A stretch of 64,000 nt of DNA, taken from the NCBI GenBank assembly GCA_030527015.1, contig JAUNBR010000009.1, positions 1 through 64,000 of the forward strand, given 5' to 3'. Below, in pieces: positions 1 through 57,122 of the stretch. A model generated the notes under the pieces. That model searched no databases. It was not told the origin of the DNA and saw nothing but the letters and a program-made list of their open reading frames with translations. The DNA comes from Planctomycetia bacterium. Its GTDB lineage: Bacteria > Planctomycetota > Planctomycetia > Pirellulales > Thermoguttaceae. The position numbers were made by a program, and so were the translations under genes. Position 1 is the stretch's first letter. The number at the start of each line of letters is the position of its first letter.

Positions 1-1
1 A

Positions 2-61
2 TTATTCTATCGTGCAAATTTTGGCAAAACTTTTGCGAAATTTTAAAATGGAATGAGTATA
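2..61. repeat. Left direct repeat, IS630-like terminus
   Basis: Nearly identical to 4788-4846 and in the same orientation. Read inward from position 61 on the minus strand it begins TATACTCATTCCATTTTAAA, close to the MITE left terminus TATACTGGTTCCACTTTAAA. Position 1 already differs from the right copy. It contains the palindrome GCAAAACTTTTGC. Confidence 0.7.
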
Positions 62-4298: not shown

Positions 4299-4418
4299 TA
4301 ACTGGTTCTCCTTTCAATTTTCGTTTTATGAGATTTTGGAAGCAGAATATTTTTCACGAAGCAAAATGCCTGTTCATTAGAGCCGCATAAAATGGAAATT
4401 TAAAGTGGAACCAGTATA
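4299..4418. repeat. Chimeric MITE with two left-type ends
   Basis: The left half is a forward left-type end (AACTGGTTCTCCTTTCAATT) and the right half is an inverted left-type end (AAATTTAAAGTGGAACCAG, then TATA). Other copies pair a left with a right end. Its right edge truncates the IS630 transposase pseudogene, and together with the copy at 4091-4191 it encloses the solitary crRNA repeat. Confidence 0.7.
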
Positions 4419-4748
4419 GAACATGCCGCTGGAGTTTAGCCACTTTTGGGCAGAGATTTTCGTCTGGCACTTCCCGAGCTCTTTCTTTCAGAGGTTGGTG
4501 AGCCTGACCGCATGACCTCACAAAGGACGATGTTTGAGTGCCTCGATTCCGCCGGATTTCCATTTTTGAAAGTAGTTGCGCACCGTGTTTTCGTCAACCA
4601 TCAGCACCTCTGTCACGTCGCCGATGGCCCAGCCGCTTCCGAGCAGAAAAACCGCTTTTATCCTGTCTGCCAGCCACTTTTCACGGGTTCTCTTGTGCTC
4701 ACGGCGCAAGTTTTCTAAAATTTCTTGAGATAATTTGTAATTTTCCAT
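4419..4748 (-). pseudogene. IS630-family transposase, N-terminal remnant
   Basis: The reading frame opens at 4748 (MENYKLSQEILEN) behind an AAGGTGG ribosome site and encodes about 76 residues of the N-terminal helix-turn-helix region. Recognisable parts are GWAIGDVTEVLMVDENTV, then VRNYFQKWKSGGIEALKHRP. It hits a stop at 4518-4520. A further stretch in another frame (VPDENLCPKVAKLQRHV) looks like the continuation after a frameshift. The catalytic DDE domain is missing, cut off by the MITE ending at 4418. It must be inactive; a functional copy would have to be elsewhere. Confidence 0.75.
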
Positions 4749-4787
4749 TTTGCCCACCTTGATAACGGTTTTGTGTATTGTGATAAT

Positions 4788-4846
4788 TTATTCTATCGTG
4801 CAAGTTTTGTGAAAACTTTTGCGAAATTTTAAATGAAATGAGTATA
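4788..4846. repeat. Right direct repeat, IS630-like terminus
   Basis: Partner of the repeat at 2-61. It lies between the transposase remnant (start 4748) and unrelated flanking DNA, so it is the 5' terminal region of that insertion sequence. Read inward it starts TATACTCATTTCATTT. The GAAAACTTTTGCG segment corresponds to the palindrome of the left copy. Confidence 0.7.
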
Positions 4847-4851
4847 TCTGA

Positions 4852-5696: not shown

Positions 5697-7766
5697 TCAT
5701 TCTCCTGTTTTTTCAGAGTGGGTTCCTTCCCTCTGTTCCTCAGCATCCTCTGACGCCGACGCAGAATGACGCTCTATCATCTCTGTTACACTGGTATTCG
5801 CAGCATCCTGAAAAAGCTCCTGTAAAATTCCACCAGAAACAGGACTTCCCTGCTCTGTCATTTTTTTCTCCGAAACCGGGGCACCCGAAACAGAAATTTC
5901 TTCCGAAATCACACTCTCACCCTCCTCGGCATGCGTCCCACTTTCAGTTCGGCCCTCTGCCTCTGGCGTCTTTTCCCCGGGTAAAATCACTCCACTTCCA
6001 GGAACACCTTCCGCTTCCAGATTCTTCACTCCAGATTTTTCCTTTTTACTTTCGCCCGTTCCGGATGCATGATCATGGTGAGCATGAGTGCAATTTTCGT
6101 CACACACATGACCCGCTTCTCGCACACTCTCACCTTCCTCGGCATGCATCCCACTTTCAGTTCGGCCCTCTGCCTCTGGCGTCTTTTCCTCGGGTAAAAT
6201 CACTCCACTTCCAGAAACACCTTCCGCTTCCTGGTTCCCCGCGCCAGATTTTTCCTTTTTACTTTCGCTCGTTCCGGATGCATGATCATGGTGAGCGTGA
6301 GTGCAATTTTCGTCACACACATGACCCTCCTCACCGGTATCATCTGTAAAAATAGAATGATGGGACAGACGAATTTCCTGATATACGGATTCAGGAATCA
6401 CATAATACCACTGTGCAAAACGTTCATTAAGTAAATCGGCACGGGTTTTTGCTTCCGACACAGCCGTTTCGTAACGCTCCGTTTCTTCCTGATTCATACT
6501 CTGAACTGCCTGCCTCTGCGCTTCCAGCTGCGCACGCTGAGTGTCCGAAACATTTTCCGGAATTTCAGGAAGATCATGCAGATGAGGCTCTGGAATGGAA
6601 TCCGTATCCAGTTCCGCGACGATAAATAAATAGCGATTTAACCCAAAAGGCGCATCACTTTCCGTGGAAATATCACCGGTTCCCGCCACATTTCCGAAAC
6701 GCAGGACGTACCGAATTCCCATTTTCGTCGTAACAGTAATTTCTCCTTCATTCGACAGTAACGCCATTTCAGTTCCCCCACCTGCCGTGGGAAAACTTAA
6801 AAGATAAAACCCTTTTTCACGAAGTGAATTCATGTCCTCTTCATTAAATTCATAATTCCCAGTAATTTTCAGCTGGGAGGAAAGTCCCTCTGGCTTACGC
6901 ACCACATTCACGATACGCATATCCGCCAGCGCATTCCGACAATCATCCAGCTTTTCCGTATCCAGACGTTTTCCAGAAGGAATCCCCCGATTACGCATTT
7001 CACCCGAGGGACCCGGTATTTCATTACTTATAAGCGTCCATGCAGGATCACTCATATCATCATATTCCAATTTAATAATCCCCTCCCAGCTCAGCTGCTG
7101 CGTACTGACATCCAGAGAATAATCCAGCGCATTTAATGCCTTAATATCCCACGGCTGAATCTGCATCAGGTCTCGCTGGATCCAGTCACTAAAATCCGAC
7201 GAAAGCTGTTTCGTGTCTAATTCCACCGTATATACCGGGTCTTGTCCAGTTCTGCGAACATACCGTTTCCCCTGCTGAAGATCCACTTCCTTTCCCACGA
7301 TCATATCCATCAGAACATTCCCTTTTTCATCCTTCATGATGATGCGCTCTCCCACACCCACTGCCCCAGAACGTAATGCATCCTGGTCAGGTGCTAAAAC
7401 TCCAAAATCACTGTGTGTCGACACATTTTCGCTCACCACACTAATCACCTGAAGCCCCATAAGACTCGTGGCAGCACGCACGACCTGATCTTTCGCATCC
7501 GCAGGATAATTCTGATGTGACGGAAGAATCCACCGATGATTGACCTGCCGCACCTCAAAAGGAATAATAGTTCCTTTATTTTTGTCATAACGAATTATCT
7601 GCAAAGAATTTACCGACAGAGCATCTGTTAACTGAGGGAAAAGTTCCTTTCCGATCATAACATTCGGAGTGTAATCCTGTTTCACAGGCCGAGTCACAAT
7701 AAATGCGGAAACGACTAAAACCAGAGCTACAAAAACAAAAATAAGTGTTTTTTTTATTTCATTCAT
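5697..7766 (-). CDS. DUF4340 domain membrane-anchored protein
   Basis: A 689-aa protein with one N-terminal membrane helix (TLIFVFVALVLVVSAFIV), then a long extracytoplasmic part with the DUF4340 pattern (GLLAPD-like FGVLAPDQDA, VGKEVDLQQGKRYVRR, YTVELDTKQLSSDFSDWIQRD). DUF4340 proteins commonly sit beside GldF/GldG-like ABC transporter genes, and this one directly follows such a gene (82-nt gap), suggesting one operon. The biochemical role is unknown. The C-terminal ~200 residues are acidic and low-complexity and hold a tandem duplication with a Cys/His-rich motif HVCDENCTHAHHDH, possibly metal-binding. Its stop lies 13 nt upstream of folK. Confidence 0.8.
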   Translation of the reverse strand: MNEIKKTLIFVFVALVLVVSAFIVTRPVKQDYTPNVMIGKELFPQLTDALSVNSLQIIRYDKNKGTIIPFEVRQVNHRWILPSHQNYPADAKDQVVRAATSLMGLQVISVVSENVSTHSDFGVLAPDQDALRSGAVGVGERIIMKDEKGNVLMDMIVGKEVDLQQGKRYVRRTGQDPVYTVELDTKQLSSDFSDWIQRDLMQIQPWDIKALNALDYSLDVSTQQLSWEGIIKLEYDDMSDPAWTLISNEIPGPSGEMRNRGIPSGKRLDTEKLDDCRNALADMRIVNVVRKPEGLSSQLKITGNYEFNEEDMNSLREKGFYLLSFPTAGGGTEMALLSNEGEITVTTKMGIRYVLRFGNVAGTGDISTESDAPFGLNRYLFIVAELDTDSIPEPHLHDLPEIPENVSDTQRAQLEAQRQAVQSMNQEETERYETAVSEAKTRADLLNERFAQWYYVIPESVYQEIRLSHHSIFTDDTGEEGHVCDENCTHAHHDHASGTSESKKEKSGAGNQEAEGVSGSGVILPEEKTPEAEGRTESGMHAEEGESVREAGHVCDENCTHAHHDHASGTGESKKEKSGVKNLEAEGVPGSGVILPGEKTPEAEGRTESGTHAEEGESVISEEISVSGAPVSEKKMTEQGSPVSGGILQELFQDAANTSVTEMIERHSASASEDAEEQREGTHSEKTGE
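5910..6326 (-). repeat. In-frame tandem duplication in the DUF4340 gene
   Basis: Two copies with a period of 213 nt (71 codons): 6326-6114 and 6113-5910. Over 68 aligned residues about 61 are identical. Each begins GHVCDENCTHAHHDHASG and continues with an acidic Glu/Gly-rich linker. High identity points to a recent duplication. Confidence 0.9.
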
Positions 7767-10578: not shown

Positions 10579-10683
10579 TATACTGATTCCACTTTAAATT
10601 CCCATTTTTTGCAGCTCAGAAAGCAGGCATTTTCATCGAAGCTAAATGCCGAGGAAGCGGAATTTTAGAGTGTATCGGGTATA
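10579..10683 (+). repeat. MITE copy
   Basis: Full-length forward copy with left end TATACTGATTCCACTTTAAA and right end GTGTATCGGGTATA. It sits between the GldFG gene and its ATPase gene; the core hairpin AGGCATTTTCATCGAAGC is present. Confidence 0.85.
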
Positions 10684-10684
10684 A

Positions 10685-10776
10685 TACACCTAAAATTTCA
10701 CTCTCCGACATTTCACGATTCTTGAAATACCTGCTTCCGTAACTGCAAAAATAAAATTAAAGCGGCACCAGCTTTA
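10685..10776 (-). repeat. Diverged MITE remnant
   Basis: Reverse-orientation remnant: ACACCTAAAATTTCACTCTC, then CCTGCTTCCGTAACTGCAAA and AATTAAAGCGGCACCAG. It resembles the second subfamily, which has a TTTCGTGA...TGAAATACCTG core. Confidence 0.45.
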
Positions 10777-12310: not shown

Positions 12311-12415
12311 TATACTCGATACGCTCTAAAATTTCCCTTCACAGGCATTTTGCTTCGCTGAAAATGCCAGCTTTCATATCCGCATAACACGGAAATTTAA
12401 AGGGAAACCCGTATA
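12311..12415 (-). repeat. MITE copy
   Basis: Full-length reverse copy starting TATACTCGATACGCTCTAAA and ending AAACCCGTATA. The hairpin core (AGGCATTTTGCTTCGCTG) is intact. It lies 80 bp upstream of the SNF2 helicase start. Confidence 0.85.
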
Positions 12416-12494
12416 TAATATTTCAGATTTCTTTACCAGAAATCACAGTTTTTTTTCATATTTTCATATCAAAAAATTTTGTTTTATTAAATAA

Positions 12495-16915: not shown

Positions 16916-17250
16916 ATTTTCGTTTTCCGCATATATTTTAGTTAGTATGCCACGATAATACAAAATACCATTTCTGTAACCATATAAAACAAAAAGCGAA
17001 GGATACCTGCACAAATAAATTTACACAGGTATCCTTGAATAAATAGACATTCCACATAAAATATACTGTGATTATTTTTGTAAAGTATCATTTATATTTT
17101 CGTATGCCCGATTCCATTTAATCCATTTTGTGCTAATATTCTTTGCAGAAGAAAGAAGTACCACTCTGATTATTTCCATCACCGAATATAAAACAGCATT
17201 AAACAGAAATTAGTACACACATCTGCTATTTTTTATAGCTTTTCGAATTT
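16916..17250. other. AT-rich spacer
   Basis: No gene with coding character. A short MITE-like fragment (ATGCCCGATTCCATTTAATC) occurs near 17104 without a matching end. Confidence 0.35.
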
Positions 17251-51119: not shown

Positions 51120-53081
51120 ATGCTACAAGTTACCCTTCCTGATGGAAAAATTCTGGAATTTAATAAACCGGTGCGTGCTATAAATGTGGCGGAGGAAATC
51201 GGCTCTGGTCTGGCGAAAGCGACGATCGCCGCAAAAATTAATGGCCAGCTGCAAGACGCGGATACTTTTCTTCCCGAGGATGGTAAAATTTCATTAGAAA
51301 TTATCACAAAAAATTCGTCTGAAGCACTGGACATCATGCGCCACAGTGCCGCTCATTTAATGGCCCGGGCAGTCATGCGCCTTTTTCCGAATGTTCAGCT
51401 GGCTTTCGGTCCGACAGTAGAAAACGGGTTTTATTATGATTTTGCGCTGGAATATCCGCTGTCTGAATCAGATTTTCCAAAAATCGAAAAGGAAATGGAA
51501 AAACTGATAAAAGAAGATGAAGTATATGAACGTTTAGAACTTCCGCGTGAAGAGGCCATTAAAGTTTTGAAAGATATGGGCCAGACGCTTAAGGCCGAAC
51601 ACCTGGAAGAAGGTCTGGCAGAAGAGGAGACCGTTTCTTTTTATCGGCAGGGCGAATTTCTGGATTTATGCAGAGGACCACATGTTCCGCGTGCAAAGAT
51701 GATCGGAGCCTTTAAGCTCATGTCCGTGGCGGGTGCTTACTGGAAAGCAGACGCGAATAACCAGCAGTTACAGCGGCTTTACGCCACGGCTTTTTTTGAT
51801 AAAAAAGAACTGAAAACTTACCTCACCCAGCTGGAAGAAGCGAAAAAACGTGATCACCGGGTTTTGGGAAAACAGCTGGAACTTTTCGCGATCGACCAGC
51901 GTGTCGGTTCTGGCCTTATTCTCTGGCTGCCGAAAGGTGCAATTATTCGCCGGCAGCTGGAAAACTTCCTTTATGACGAATTAATCCGCCGTGGTTATCA
52001 GGTCATATACTCTCCCGTCGTGGGGCGTGTGGGGCTTTACATGACCTCCGGGCATTATCCTTATTACGCCGACAGTCAGTTTCCGCCGATCGAAGTGGAT
52101 AAGGGGGATCCTTATCTGTTACGCCCCATGAACTGTCCACATCATGTTATTATGTACGCTCAGAGACCGCGCAGTTACAGGGAATTACCTCTGCGGCTGG
52201 CAGAATTCGGAAACGTTTACCGTTTTGAACAGTCTGGTGAGCTAAATGGCCTTACGCGTGTACGTGGGTTTACCCAGGATGACGCTCACATTTTTTGCAC
52301 GGAAGAGCAGGTAAAGGATGAGTTCCGTAACTGTCTGGATATGACACAATTTGTTTTAAAAATTCTCGGATTTCAGGATTACCGTGTTCGCCTGGGATTC
52401 CGTGACCCGGACAGTGATAAATATGTCGGAGACGCGGCCACGTGGGATAAAGCGGAACGCGCTCTGGAAGAGGTGTGTCAGGAACTGAATCTGCCGAATC
52501 TCACCATCACCCGAGGTGAGGCCGCGTTTTATGGTCCGAAAGCGGATTTCGTGGTTTCAGACTGTATCGGCCGAGAATGGCAGCTTGGAACGGTTCAGCT
52601 GGATTATAATTTACCCAGTGAAAATCGTTTTAATCTCACGTATATCGGACCGGATAATCTTCCGCACCGTCCCGTGATGATTCACCGTGCACCTTTTGGA
52701 TCTTTTGAACGTTTTACCGGCATTTTAATCGAACATTTCGCCGGGGCCTTCCCCCTCTGGCTGGCTCCAGAACAGGTACGAATTTTGGTCGTCAGTCAAA
52801 AATATGAAGAATATGCGAAATCTGTCGAACAAAAATTACGAGACACCGGCATACGTGTTACCGGAGATTATCGCCCGGAAAAAATTGGCGCTAAAATCCG
52901 TGAGGCTCAGCTGCAGCTGATTCCTTATATGTTCATCATCGGACAGCGAGAAGAAGAGCAGCAGACGGTTTCCGTACGTGACCGAATTTCTGGAGACCTG
53001 GGAAGTATGTCTCTGGAAACCGCCATTCAAAAATTACAGCTGGAAATAAAAGAAAAAGTAATTCGCCGTAAAGATACTTAA
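51120..53081 (+). CDS. thrS: Threonyl-tRNA synthetase
   Basis: Class II synthetase that charges tRNA-Thr. At 653 aa it has all the bacterial ThrRS parts: an N-terminal TGS domain (1-60), an editing domain with [10 protein letters not shown] (H75, H79) and a later CRGPHVP, and a catalytic core with [13 protein letters not shown] (zinc Cys), motif 2 [23 protein letters not shown] and motif 3 [13 protein letters not shown]. The C-terminal anticodon-binding domain starts near [14 protein letters not shown]. The start ATG 51120 is preceded by AAGAAAGG. A leader hairpin may give autoregulation. Confidence 0.97.
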
Positions 53082-53130
53082 CGTTTACCGGAATATCTTA
53101 TTATTCGGATTCCCACATGCAGACGTTACT

Positions 53131-53232
53131 TTTACTGATTCCATCATAAATTTAAATTTCGCGCGGCGTGAATCTGTATTTCAGGCCGCGCGAAATGGCG
53201 GGGAATACGACATTTACAGTGCACCAGGTATA
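53131..53232 (+). repeat. MITE variant with GC-rich hairpin
   Basis: Left end TTTACTGATTCCATCATAAA and right end GTGCACCAGGTATA. The core is replaced by ATTTCGCGCGGC and GCCGCGCGAAAT, a perfect 12-bp stem around about 17 nt. It begins 49 bp after thrS and could act as a strong transcript 3' end. Confidence 0.7.
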
Positions 53233-53316
53233 AATATTTAATAGTACTTCGAGTATATAAAGTGAGAATTCGCTTTATTATCATTTTAGATAAATAATAA
53301 ACATAAGGAGGAAAAC

Positions 53317-53640
53317 ATGTCGAATGTTAAATCTGTAACCGATGAAAATTTTACATCAGAAGTAATGGAACATAACGGTCTGGTTCTGGTGGATTTCTGG
53401 GGGCCAGGATGCGGTCCCTGCCGTATGATTGCGCCGATAATTGACGCGATTTCTGGTGAAAATGAAACACTAAAAGTCGTTAAAGTAAATGTCTCTGAAG
53501 CACCGCAAGTCGCGAATCAGTTTCAGATCACTTCCATTCCCACGCTCATTTTTATTAAAAATGGAAACGTTCTTGAGCAGTTTATCGGTGTGGTTCAGAA
53601 ACAAAAATTACAGGCAGTAATCGACGAAAATCTTGCGTAA
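53317..53640 (+). CDS. trxA: Thioredoxin
   Basis: A 107-aa thiol-disulfide oxidoreductase of the cytoplasm. The active site reads FWGPGCGPC (W28, C32, C35), with Gly-Pro-Gly where many thioredoxins have Ala-Xaa-Trp before the first Cys. The cis-proline follows in SIPTLIFIKNG. AAGGAGG lies 5 nt before ATG 53317, the clearest ribosome site in the window. Single-gene unit with MITEs on both sides. Confidence 0.93.
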   Translation: MSNVKSVTDENFTSEVMEHNGLVLVDFWGPGCGPCRMIAPIIDAISGENETLKVVKVNVSEAPQVANQFQITSIPTLIFIKNGNVLEQFIGVVQKQKLQAVIDENLA

Positions 53641-53644
53641 ACAC

Positions 53645-53865
53645 TTATGCCCCGATGCATTATACTGGTTCCACTTTAAATTCTCGTTTTGTGCGGTTCT
53701 GAAAGCAGGCATTTTCAGCGAAGCAAAAATGTCGGGAAAGCGGAATTTTATAGTGTATCGGGTATATAAATTTCCGCTTCACCGGTATTCTTGCTTCGCT
53801 GAAAATGCTTAAACTTTTATGGCCACGAAAACAGAAATTTTATAAGTAAAATCAGAATCAGTATT
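53645..53865 (-). repeat. MITE interrupted by another MITE
   Basis: The outer reverse copy starts TATGCCCCGATGCAT (to 53660), is broken at the TA, and resumes after the inner copy with TATAAATTTCCGCTTCACCG. It ends AAAATCAGAATCAGTATTA at 53865. The inner copy is 53661-53766. Removing it and one TA restores a normal full-length element. Confidence 0.75.
53661..53766 (+). repeat. MITE copy nested in an older copy
   Basis: Near-consensus forward copy (TATACTGGTTCCACTTTAAA at the left, GTGTATCGGGTATA at the right) inserted at a TA in the terminal repeat of the element at 53645-53865. Confidence 0.9.
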
Positions 53866-53869
53866 AAAT

Positions 53870-53970
53870 TATACCTGATTTCCTCTTAATTTCCATTTTA
53901 TACGGTCATGGAAACAGCGTTTCATGTTTCGCAAAATGCCGCAGAAGTGAATTTTATAGTGCATCGCGTT
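53870..53970 (+). repeat. Diverged MITE copy
   Basis: Forward copy (TATACCTGATTTCCTCTTAA at the left, TAGTGCATCGCGTTT at the right). The core matches ACAGCGTTTCATGTTTCGC, then AAAATGCCGC. Confidence 0.65.
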
Positions 53971-54032
53971 TCGAATTACATCTTACTCAGCCAAGGATTC
54001 AGAATATTCCATCCACGACTCTCTGTGTATGT

Positions 54033-54139
54033 TATACCGGTTTTCCTTTAAATTTCCGTTTTATGTGGTTCTGAAAGCAGATATTTTCAGCGAGAAATAA
54101 AATGCCGGAAAAGCAGAAATTTATAGTGTATCAGATATA
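54033..54139 (+). repeat. MITE copy
   Basis: Forward copy (TATACCGGTTTTCCTTTAAA at the left, GTGTATCAGATATA at the right), 28 bp upstream of the lactonase start. Confidence 0.85.
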
Positions 54140-54166
54140 TCATATTTCATCACACGAAAAAAACTT

Positions 54167-55309
54167 ATGCAAAAAAATAATTTCCCTGACATTTTTTATA
54201 TCGGCACAAAATCTCTTCCCACGAATCATCCTGACATCATGCCGAGCGAGGGAATTTACGCTTTTTCATTAAATTCCTCAGGTAAAATTACGTCTCTGGG
54301 CCTGGCTGCCGAAGCGAAAAGCCCGGCCTTTCTGGCAAAACATCCGACTCTCGATATTTTTTACTGTATCGCGGACAGTGAAAACCCACAGCGAAAAGAC
54401 GGAATGGTCATTTCTTTTCGCCGTGATCCTCTCACGAATCGGCTTCAGCGAATAAACTCCTTACACACCGAAGGTGCTGGCGCGACTCATCTTTCCGTTC
54501 ATCCCCACGGTAAATATCTTTTTACCGCTAATTTTCATAGTGGAACCGCTTCATGCTTCACTCTGAATCCTGACGGCAGCCTGGGAACACTAATGAATCT
54601 CATTACCCTTCACGGTCACGGGCCAAATAAATCACGTCAGTCGGCCTCTCACCCTCACTGGATACACGCAGATCCGACAGGAAAATATATCCTCCTCTGT
54701 GACCTGGGTGCAGACAGAATTTACTCTTTTCACCTTAACGACACAAAATCCGCATGGATCCCTAACGAAAATCAGCCATACGCCACCGTCTCCAGCGGTG
54801 CAGGATGCCGTCATGGCGCATTCTCTGACGATGGGCGTTACCTTTTCATTCTTAATGAAATTTCATGTACCCTGGACATCTTTTCCTTCTGTTCTTCCTC
54901 TGGCATTTTAACGAATATTCACTCTGCCGCCACTTTACCTTCCGAGTTCTGCGGAGAAAATAAATCGGCAGGAATCTGCCTCCATCCTTCCGGAAAATTT
55001 CTTTATCTCTCTCACCGCGGCGCCGACATCATCACCACTCTCTCCATGACGTTTCCTGAAAATTTTATCCCCGATTCGGGGCTTTCCATTTCTCCAGTAA
55101 CACACGCCAAATTTTTCCACAGCGGAGGTAAATTTCCCCGATTTATCCTTCTAAATCCTTCTGGCCGCTTCCTTCTGGTCTGTAACAAAAAATCCCACCA
55201 TGTGCAGATTTTCCATGTGGATCCGAACACCGGCGCTCTTACCCCCACAGATCATACTTCTGTTCCGTGGCCCGTGGGTGGCGTTTTTGCAGAAAACTTC
55301 CTTTCTTAA
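54167..55309 (+). CDS. Lactonase family beta-propeller (6-phosphogluconolactonase-like)
   Basis: A 380-aa seven-bladed beta-propeller of the PF10282 lactonase type, whose members include E. coli Pgl, which hydrolyses 6-phosphogluconolactone in the pentose phosphate pathway. Characteristic blade segments are SPAFLAKHPTLDIFYCIADS, ATHLSVHPHGKYLFTANF, SHPHWIHADPTGKYILLCDL, GCRHGAFSDDGRYLFILNE and AGICLHPSGKFLYLSHRG. No signal peptide is seen, so probably cytoplasmic. The ATG at 54167 has no clear ribosome site. Substrate not proven; other members act on different lactones. Confidence 0.82.
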   Translation: MQKNNFPDIFYIGTKSLPTNHPDIMPSEGIYAFSLNSSGKITSLGLAAEAKSPAFLAKHPTLDIFYCIADSENPQRKDGMVISFRRDPLTNRLQRINSLHTEGAGATHLSVHPHGKYLFTANFHSGTASCFTLNPDGSLGTLMNLITLHGHGPNKSRQSASHPHWIHADPTGKYILLCDLGADRIYSFHLNDTKSAWIPNENQPYATVSSGAGCRHGAFSDDGRYLFILNEISCTLDIFSFCSSSGILTNIHSAATLPSEFCGENKSAGICLHPSGKFLYLSHRGADIITTLSMTFPENFIPDSGLSISPVTHAKFFHSGGKFPRFILLNPSGRFLLVCNKKSHHVQIFHVDPNTGALTPTDHTSVPWPVGGVFAENFLS

Positions 55310-55349
55310 ATGCACACCCTTTTTATAAACTGAAAACTTTTGCCAGACC

Positions 55350-55455
55350 ATACTCTGGTTCTGCTTTAAATTTCCATTTCGTACGGTTCTGAAAGCAGGC
55401 ATTTTCAGTAAAGCAAAATGCGGAGAAAGCGAAAACTTATAGTGTATCGAGAATA
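55350..55455 (+). repeat. MITE copy
   Basis: Forward copy (ATACTCTGGTTCTGCTTTAA at the left, GTGTATCGAGAATA at the right), 40 bp after the lactonase gene. Confidence 0.82.
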
Positions 55456-55483
55456 AAAAATATTACAGATAAAATTATAAAAT

Positions 55484-55694
55484 CATACTGGCGCCACTTT
55501 ATACTGATTCCACTTTAAATTTCCGTTTTTTGCGGCTCTGAAAATACGGTATTTTCAGCGAAAACTAAATGCCCGGGAAACGAAATTTTATAGTGTATCG
55601 GGTATAAATTTCCATTTCATACGGTTCTGAAAGCAGGCATTTTCTGCGCAGCAAAAATGCTGAGAAAGAGAAAATTTATAGTATATCGGATATA
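55484..55694 (+). repeat. MITE interrupted by another MITE
   Basis: The outer forward copy begins CATACTGGCGCCACTT (55484-55499). It resumes after the inner copy with TAAATTTCCATTTCATACGG and ends AGTATATCGGATATA at 55694. Joining the two parts gives one complete element; the inner copy 55500-55606 is flanked by TA duplications. Confidence 0.8.
55500..55606 (+). repeat. MITE copy nested in an older copy
   Basis: Complete forward copy (TATACTGATTCCACTTTAAA at the left, GTGTATCGGGTATA at the right) inserted at the TA at position 17-18 of the outer element. Confidence 0.9.
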
Positions 55695-55793
55695 TAAATT
55701 ATCCGAATCAAAAATATATCGCGGCAGACATCTGAAAAATATTTTGAAACTGTCATACATGGATACGTTATCTAAAGTTCCATTATCTGTTAT

Positions 55794-57122
55794 TTAAAGC
55801 TCCATTAACAGATTTTCCAGATCCATTCCCACTTCAGAAAGCACCCGCGCCCATTTCGGATGCAGAAAAAGCCGCACTCTTTTCACGACATCATCAAACT
55901 GTTCTTGCGCCAAGGCACGAATCACTGGAGAAACTTCTCCCAGCGGATAATATTTCCCAGTTTTTGCGGAATAAACATCCACAATAAATTCCACTTCTCT
56001 TTCCACCGGGGGAGCATCCAGAATCACATCATCCGGTGAAATAACCATTCCTGTACGCACAGAGAGTTTTTCAGCAAAACACACCGCTTTCTCCACGAGT
56101 TCTGCATAAGGAAGCCGTGCAAAACGACGATAAACTTCCGGATACTCAAAAACACTGTACTGCGCCACCTGTTTATAAAGCGCACGACGTTTCCCAAAAA
56201 GCCCCCCCCAGAGCGGACAGTCTGAGCGCCCACGCATTTCCCGCAGCATATGAATGGCCTCCACGTCCGTCACTTCCATATATTTCTGATGAAAATCGCG
56301 CCTTTCTTCTGACGTCATCTCGCGCCGCGACTCATAATATAACCTCTGAAACATGGCCGTGGCACTACGTACCGCATGATGCCAGTATACTTCACTAAAC
56401 ATAACATAACGGGCAAAAACCATCATTTCCGCCGCCGTTTTCCCCTTACTGGAAATGGCTAAACCATCTCCCGCCGCATTCAGACACAGACTCCCCAAAA
56501 GACGTTCCTGATCAAAATTCCGCCCATACGGCACTCCCGCATGAAGACTGTCACGATATAAATAATCCATTTTGTCGATATCCACTGGCCCCGACAGCAT
56601 ACTACTCAGCAGACGCCGTGATAAACTGGACGTATCTTTACACAAAATCATGTAAACATCTTCCGGTGTACAGCTCCAATCTTCCTTAATACAAGAAAAA
56701 ATTTCGGAACTCTCATTCCTCAGATACCGGATCATCCCCTTCTCATGAGAAGTCACCTCCGGTAAAAACATATCCTCCACAGGATGACAAAAAGGATAAT
56801 GCCCTAAATCATGTAACAGAGCAGAAAGAATAAATACCTCCGCATCCGCTGGAGAAATCGCCTCCGCAAAACGTTTATCGTATAACATCCGCTTTATCAG
56901 AAGGACCGCCAGACGATACACACCTAAAGAATGCTCAAAACGTGAATGCAGCGCACCAGGATATACCTGTGCCACCAGTCCTAACTGACTAATATGCTTT
57001 AACCGCTGAAACTCAGGTGTATCTAAAACACGCCTCACCCGAGCCGTCAGAGGGACATCCAGCTCTGATGGAATACGAATAATATTATACCGGGCATCCA
57101 GCACCGCGATTTCAGGAATCAT
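55794..57122 (-). CDS. HD-domain phosphohydrolase (dGTPase/SAMHD1-like)
   Basis: A 442-aa protein of the HD superfamily, COG1078 type, probably a metal-dependent nucleotide triphosphohydrolase. The HD metal site is complete: HSRFEHSLGVYR (H64), LLHDLGHYPFCH (H104-D105) and PVDIDKMDYLYRDSLH for the last aspartate. The N-terminus IIRIPSELDVPLTARVRRVL resembles other members. It stands alone, transcribed on the minus strand. The exact substrate (dGTP or other) is not decided by sequence; some relatives have defence or regulatory roles. Confidence 0.85.
   Translation of the reverse strand: MIPEIAVLDARYNIIRIPSELDVPLTARVRRVLDTPEFQRLKHISQLGLVAQVYPGALHSRFEHSLGVYRLAVLLIKRMLYDKRFAEAISPADAEVFILSALLHDLGHYPFCHPVEDMFLPEVTSHEKGMIRYLRNESSEIFSCIKEDWSCTPEDVYMILCKDTSSLSRRLLSSMLSGPVDIDKMDYLYRDSLHAGVPYGRNFDQERLLGSLCLNAAGDGLAISSKGKTAAEMMVFARYVMFSEVYWHHAVRSATAMFQRLYYESRREMTSEERRDFHQKYMEVTDVEAIHMLREMRGRSDCPLWGGLFGKRRALYKQVAQYSVFEYPEVYRRFARLPYAELVEKAVCFAEKLSVRTGMVISPDDVILDAPPVEREVEFIVDVYSAKTGKYYPLGEVSPVIRALAQEQFDDVVKRVRLFLHPKWARVLSEVGMDLENLLMEL

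Follow-up and report, generated by a model that had tools for sequence, protein, structure and literature searches.

A MITE family of the IS630/Tc1-mariner type with nested insertions and an oriented target bias in a Planctomycetia draft genome

Introduction

Among the short multicopy elements described in bacteria, the nearest analogue found for the family presented here is RUP of Streptococcus pneumoniae, an element of about 107 bp that is described as tightly folded, bears ends resembling those of the resident IS630-Spn1 and is thought to be moved in trans by it (PMC3049150). The likeness lies in size and partner only. Copies of RUP insert into one another, and an earlier proposal had them landing within or close to IS copies (PMC3049150); nested insertion is in itself already known in bacteria. 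The portion of that account available makes no mention of an oriented target, unlike the situation in the MITE family treated below. The Correia elements of Neisseria, comparable by their description as another short multicopy bacterial MITE, are given in a 2024 review as the first prokaryotic MITE, with a length of 204 bp and more than 120 copies; according to the same review, no MITE load comparable to the 8-10% of plants has been observed in prokaryotes (PMC10969869).

The movement of IS630/Tc1-mariner elements in bacteria is exemplified by ISY100 from Synechocystis, which transposes by cut-and-paste, inserts almost only at TA and duplicates the TA in the process, with 34 of 39 products obtained in vitro being normal (PMC2170065). 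ISY100 is an autonomous IS for which the available part of the report mentions no AAA-oriented bias, whereas the present element is a MITE that displays one. In plants, the Stowaway-type Mariner MITEs are likewise short Tc1/mariner elements that use TA within A/T-rich targets, and their copy numbers are reported to far exceed those of the autonomous elements (PMC5738225). Their target is given as the symmetric [T/A][T/A]nnT-Ann[T/A][T/A] (PMC5738225), in contrast to the one-sided target described here.

The present family is found in a draft assembly of 132 contigs (3.84 Mb) from a Planctomycetia bacterium, and was noticed in contig C14, here called the window, meaning the whole stretch of 64,000 nucleotides that was analyzed. 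With a probability of roughly 0.88, we read it as a MITE family that moves by cut-and-paste, probably with an IS630 transposase acting in trans, that duplicates TA and that inserts in an orientation set by a TA followed by AAA, the two nested pairs of the window being examples of this behavior.

The element and its nested copies in the window

The consensus element is about 105 bp long and is bounded by imperfect terminal inverted repeats of about 26 bp, the left and right ends agreeing at 21 of 26 positions. Most of the features looked for as marks of membership were found, and the family can be placed among the MITEs of the IS630/Tc1-mariner type. A profile HMM of the family (446 sequences, 107 columns, drawn from the window and 20 further stretches) was used to scan the window together with 40 stretches of the same genome, a sample of 767,080 bases or 20% of the genome, in which it located 836 copies, 610 of them near-full. 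The same 767 kb read backwards returned 0 matches, as did 79 loci of other genomes (675 kb).

The first nested pair, which the preliminary description had placed at 53645-53865, occupies 53646-53865, where the letters reveal an older copy of about 105 bp on the minus strand split near its right end by a younger one. The right-end piece of the outer copy, TATGCCCCGATGCAT, lies at 53646-53660 on the minus strand and is recognized from the letters and from the rejoined HMM match across the junction. The complete inner copy, supported by the letters, the HMM and the rejoining test, follows at 53661-53766 on the plus strand and carries the two copies of the target TA at 53661-53662 and 53765-53766. 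The rest of the older copy, beginning TAAATTTCCGC and extending to its left end, lies at 53767-53865 on the minus strand (HMM positions 2-91 at 53858-53765 of that strand). Once the inner copy and one TA are removed, a normal element is obtained; the joined flanks score 62.7 bits with the family HMM versus 0 for the left flank alone and 48.0 for the right flank alone.

The second pair, at 55484-55694, lies entirely on the plus strand and comprises a left-end piece of the outer copy, CATACTGGCGCCACTT, at 55484-55499 (letters and rejoined HMM match), a complete inner copy with the duplicated TA on both sides at 55500-55606 (letters, HMM and rejoining test) and the remainder of the outer copy, beginning AATTTCCATTT, at 55607-55694 (HMM positions 16-106 at 55604-55695). 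Removal of the inner copy and one TA again yields a normal element, with 85.0 bits for the joined flanks versus 66.4 for the left and 67.4 for the right flank alone; we take the value of the left flank to stem from a neighboring copy within the 130 bp considered on that side. The break in each pair falls at a TA 15-16 nt inside the end of the outer copy, in its right-end repeat in the first pair and in its left-end repeat in the second. Both nests are thus real, as had been proposed from the letters.

Further copies of the family, each located by the HMM on the plus strand, surround these pairs at 54033-54141 and 55351-55457, with degraded ones at 53131-53234 and 53870-53973. A possible third nest was seen at 10579-10772, where a plus-strand copy (candidate inner copy 10579-10684) stands beside a minus-strand remnant that lacks its right end; this candidate did not pass the rejoining test. 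The window also holds a 210-nt repeat present as a tandem pair (5910-6332, 93% identical). A search of 53000-56000 against Rfam gave five matches (E up to 1), every one far below the gathering score.

Load and distribution

The window contains 45 copies (0.70 per kb, 7.1% of bases), compared to 313 copies (1.00 per kb, 9.8% of bases) in 20 stretches taken by contig number (313 kb) and 495 copies (1.27 per kb, 12.7% of bases) in 20 stretches chosen around hits. Pooling the window with the by-number stretches, which begin at contig starts, are mostly whole contigs shorter than 21 kb and were not drawn at random, gives 358 copies in 377,108 bases, or 0.95 per kb and 9.3% of bases. Extrapolated to the draft genome, this amounts to some 3,600 copies, or about 2,700 at the density of the window, as against the 110 copies of RUP given for the strain described (PMC3049150). 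Only 9 of 588 copies lie mostly within ORFs of at least 150 aa, so that the family is mainly intergenic, and it makes up 32% of the sampled DNA outside such ORFs.

Matches to the family were found in 5 of 40 genomes searched, namely its own genome and G001, G004, G005 and G007, all of a single genus, while the 32 genomes of other genera in that search gave none. G007 harbors a diverged version of the family (L099-L106), with 223 candidates at first look and a best full-length match of 75% identity, and the flanks of its copies also look A-rich on the right side. No DDE_3 match was found in the G007 genome, so the partner could be a different one there. In G004, two copies (L097, 10404-10508, and L098, 7375-7479) have the right flank TAATACTTCGCG in common, as if they had inserted into another repeat or possessed a longer end; a third copy (L093) has TATAATACTTCG.

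Nested insertion across the genome and empty sites

The frequency of nesting was assessed by a rejoining test on 588 of the 610 near-full copies, namely those flanked by 200 bp of sequence, the other 22 lying too near an end. Each copy was excised by script, with 0, 2 or 4 bp of its two TAs left in place, and was scored as nested where the joined flanks reached at least 20 bits and exceeded either flank alone by more than 8 bits. Fifty-nine of the 588 copies split another copy by this measure, compared to 0 of 3000 random non-element TA sites, which were tested with the 2-bp join only. The two nests of the window are therefore not special, and nested insertion is common in this genome. The best rebuild retained one TA (2 bp) in 37 nests, 0 bp in 14 and 4 bp in 8, so that a join other than 2 bp scored best in 22 of the 59; among the 38 nests in which the TA is intact at both inner ends, the corresponding counts are 27, 9 and 2. 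The inner copy has the higher HMM score in 57 of the 59 pairs, as would be expected if inner copies are younger, in a comparison that is biased because the inner copies had to be near-full and the outer ones are cut.

The clearest view of an insertion is provided by a filled and an empty site on one contig (L079). The filled site (17116-17221) reads GCGCTGTA, followed by the element from TATACTGG to CGGGTATA, with its right end reading GGGTATA, and then AAACTTG. Its empty counterpart, 4.7 kb away at 12351-12488, reads GCGCTGTATAAAACTTG, and over 138 bp the flanks of the two share 89.9% identity. Insertion has added the element and a single TA, next to an AAA that the site already carried. Together with the predominance of the 2-bp join, this clean pair supports the earlier claim of real mobility with duplication of TA. 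The L079 pair is one of four non-nested empty-site candidates with less than 40% element content, of which two junctions were read and one was clean; a candidate at L057 (12979-13086) displays a small discrepancy at the junction.

The nearest genomes searched represent other species, the three best of them being 71-73% identical in DNA along thrS, and these relatives are too diverged for orthologous empty sites beside thrS; the closest named ThrS record, with 71% protein identity, comes from a Thermoguttaceae MAG from goat reticulum, and the host probably belongs to that family. A lactonase comparison gave no name for the host.

The resident IS630-type element

Six DDE_3 matches (L009-L014) are present in the genome, each of which is partial, broken or truncated by the end of a contig, and no intact transposase gene was found in this draft assembly. 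Transposase fragments score 102.9, 69.3 and 50.0 bits against the NCBIfam IS630 model NF033545, two of these values lying below its cut-off of 100, and a fragment scores 95.8 bits against Pfam DDE_3. L010 contains an IS copy that retains its two ends, TATACTCATTCCATTTTAAAATTTCG and, in the inward reading, TATACTCATGCCATTTTAAAATTCAG, and whose transposase gene is interrupted by two MITEs. The left end of the MITE matches the left end of this IS at 21 of 26 positions, and its right end matches the same IS end more weakly, at 18 of 26; of 5557 non-element TATA sites, a background in which IS ends are still included, 7 reach 21/26 and 23 reach 18/26. Judging by its ends, an IS of the L010 type probably moves the MITE, and by analogy with the known mechanism of the IS630/Tc1-mariner family, the MITE would move by cut-and-paste.

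The three copies of the IS in this genome that cover the region (L009, L010 and L012) share a MITE insertion at a single position of the transposase gene, just upstream of what we take to be the first catalytic-type motif, suggesting that the MITE-broken IS was itself multiplied. This site is empty in three copies from genomes of the same genus (L061, L062 and L067), with a one-base discrepancy. L012 was also considered as the clean, unoccupied counterpart of the first MITE insertion in L010 and was rejected; it reads TTCTGAAAATG versus the rebuilt TTTTAAAAATG, a length that fits one TA at a site that differs.

Readable ends of the IS comprise 26 distinct left ends (30 fetched loci) and 25 distinct right ends (26 of 30 fetched loci). 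Eighteen of the former and 16 of the latter, 34 in all, lie within about 55 bp of a contig terminus (window 1-61 and L113-L167), a pattern typical of a multi-copy element whose near-identical copies have been collapsed by the assembler, and we infer that near-identical, recently active IS copies exist and were left unassembled. The window itself begins in this manner, contig C14 stopping within an IS630-type left end on the minus strand (1-61; IS-end comparison). A further minus-strand stretch at 4363-4847 is an old remnant of the IS630 type that is 82% identical to the L010 copy and holds an element of the family. Of the 51 IS ends, ten lie directly against a MITE, including 6 that fall within one, and the IS at L159 interrupts a MITE at the terminal-repeat TA that was also used in the nests of the window. 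The orientation bias of the IS itself is weak (AAA on the right flank in 6 of 25, p = 0.01), and the excess is in part explained by IS copies sitting in MITEs.

These comparisons leave some room for a different transposase, encoded by another, unassembled IS630-type IS with ends nearer to TATACTGG... and TATACCCG..., of which the IS seen here would be a cousin. Such a partner would account for the 5 to 9 of 26 positions at which the ends of the MITE and the IS differ, for a strong AAA orientation bias in the MITE as against a weak one in the IS, and for the many diverged copies in G007 in the lack of any DDE_3 match. However, no second IS630-type match was seen in the genome of origin, where all six DDE_3 matches answer to one related query, and we regard this alternative as unlikely, if still worth serious attention.

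Target choice

The target of the MITE was assessed from the 287 non-nested copies with a TA at both ends. AAA stands on the right flank in 133 of these (46%), compared to 7.7% of 35,540 background TAs, while TTT stands on the left flank in 23 (8.0%), against a background of 8.1%. With an excess on the right and background on the left, the target is asymmetric and insertion is oriented, the rule being a TA followed by AAA at the right end of the element. The nests inside elements display the same preference, as 38 of 39 have AA on the right versus 28% of the available interior TA orientation-sites (p = 5e-20); among the nests at terminal-repeat TAs this is so in only 6 of 15, the TA there being usually followed by AAT or TAA.

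One might instead regard the AAA as part of the element, since it directly adjoins the TATA belonging to the end and the family HMM took in AA as its last two columns, or as an effect of retention rather than of target preference. This is improbable: the AAA is present in the empty site at L079 and is already carried by the outer copies of the internal nests, and the bias is equal across the four quartiles of HMM score, a proxy for age (32, 32, 36 and 32 of 71).

The oriented target does not extend to a preference for the terminal repeat, which had been proposed on the basis of the two nests in the window. The 59 nested insertions divide into 15 at TAs of the terminal repeat, 39 in the interior of the element and 5 at other places. 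Counted per AA-flanked TA, the terminal repeat received 15 events at 1400 sites compared to 39 at 588 interior sites (odds ratio 0.16, p = 2e-10), a usage about six times lower per available site. The TA of the terminal repeat is thus frequent without being preferred, and this part of the preliminary description does not stand. The idea that elements attract insertions was likewise considered and found no support, as copies received 10.0% of the tested insertions, compared to their share of 13.8% among TAs, 20.2% among TA-AAA sites and 32% in the sampled non-ORF DNA.

Head-to-tail arrays with a spacing of about 104 bp and flanks up to 99% identical were seen at L080 (762-1155) and L053 (7045-7335), and possibly arose by repeated insertion at the terminal TATA, or by recombination. 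That the nests themselves formed through slippage in replication or through recombination between palindromic repeats, as the palindromic family and arrays of successive copies sharing ends (L080, 762-1075) might suggest, is very hard to credit given the precise element borders and single duplicated TA in non-element flank at L079, which contradict it, the many positions of the 59 nests and the weak, unremarkable single-strand folding of the inner copy (z = -1.5).

Implications

Transposition in trans, the reading preferred here, would proceed from an element of about 105 bp, without room for a transposase gene, for which the transposase would most likely be supplied by an IS630-family element of the Tc1/mariner superfamily. 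Movement would be by cut-and-paste. Insertion takes place at a TA, which is duplicated, and joining is oriented, with the right end placed against a TA that AAA follows. Copies build up between genes, so that new insertions often fall within older copies that offer a suitable TA.

Neither this MITE family nor an oriented target of TA followed by AAA was reported in the open-access literature searched. On balance, we lean towards regarding the family as a bacterial Tc1/mariner-type MITE that couples fixed-orientation insertion before AAA with a load like that of plants, a single family accounting for about 9% of the genome and for roughly one third of the DNA that separates the larger ORFs. What is striking is scale and targeting, in an element that is ordinary in kind, extreme in amount and unusual in its oriented target. 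The many copies with their graded divergence make target choice, orientation and the history of insertion readable from sequence alone, and an oriented target in an element of the Tc1/mariner type is directly testable in vitro.
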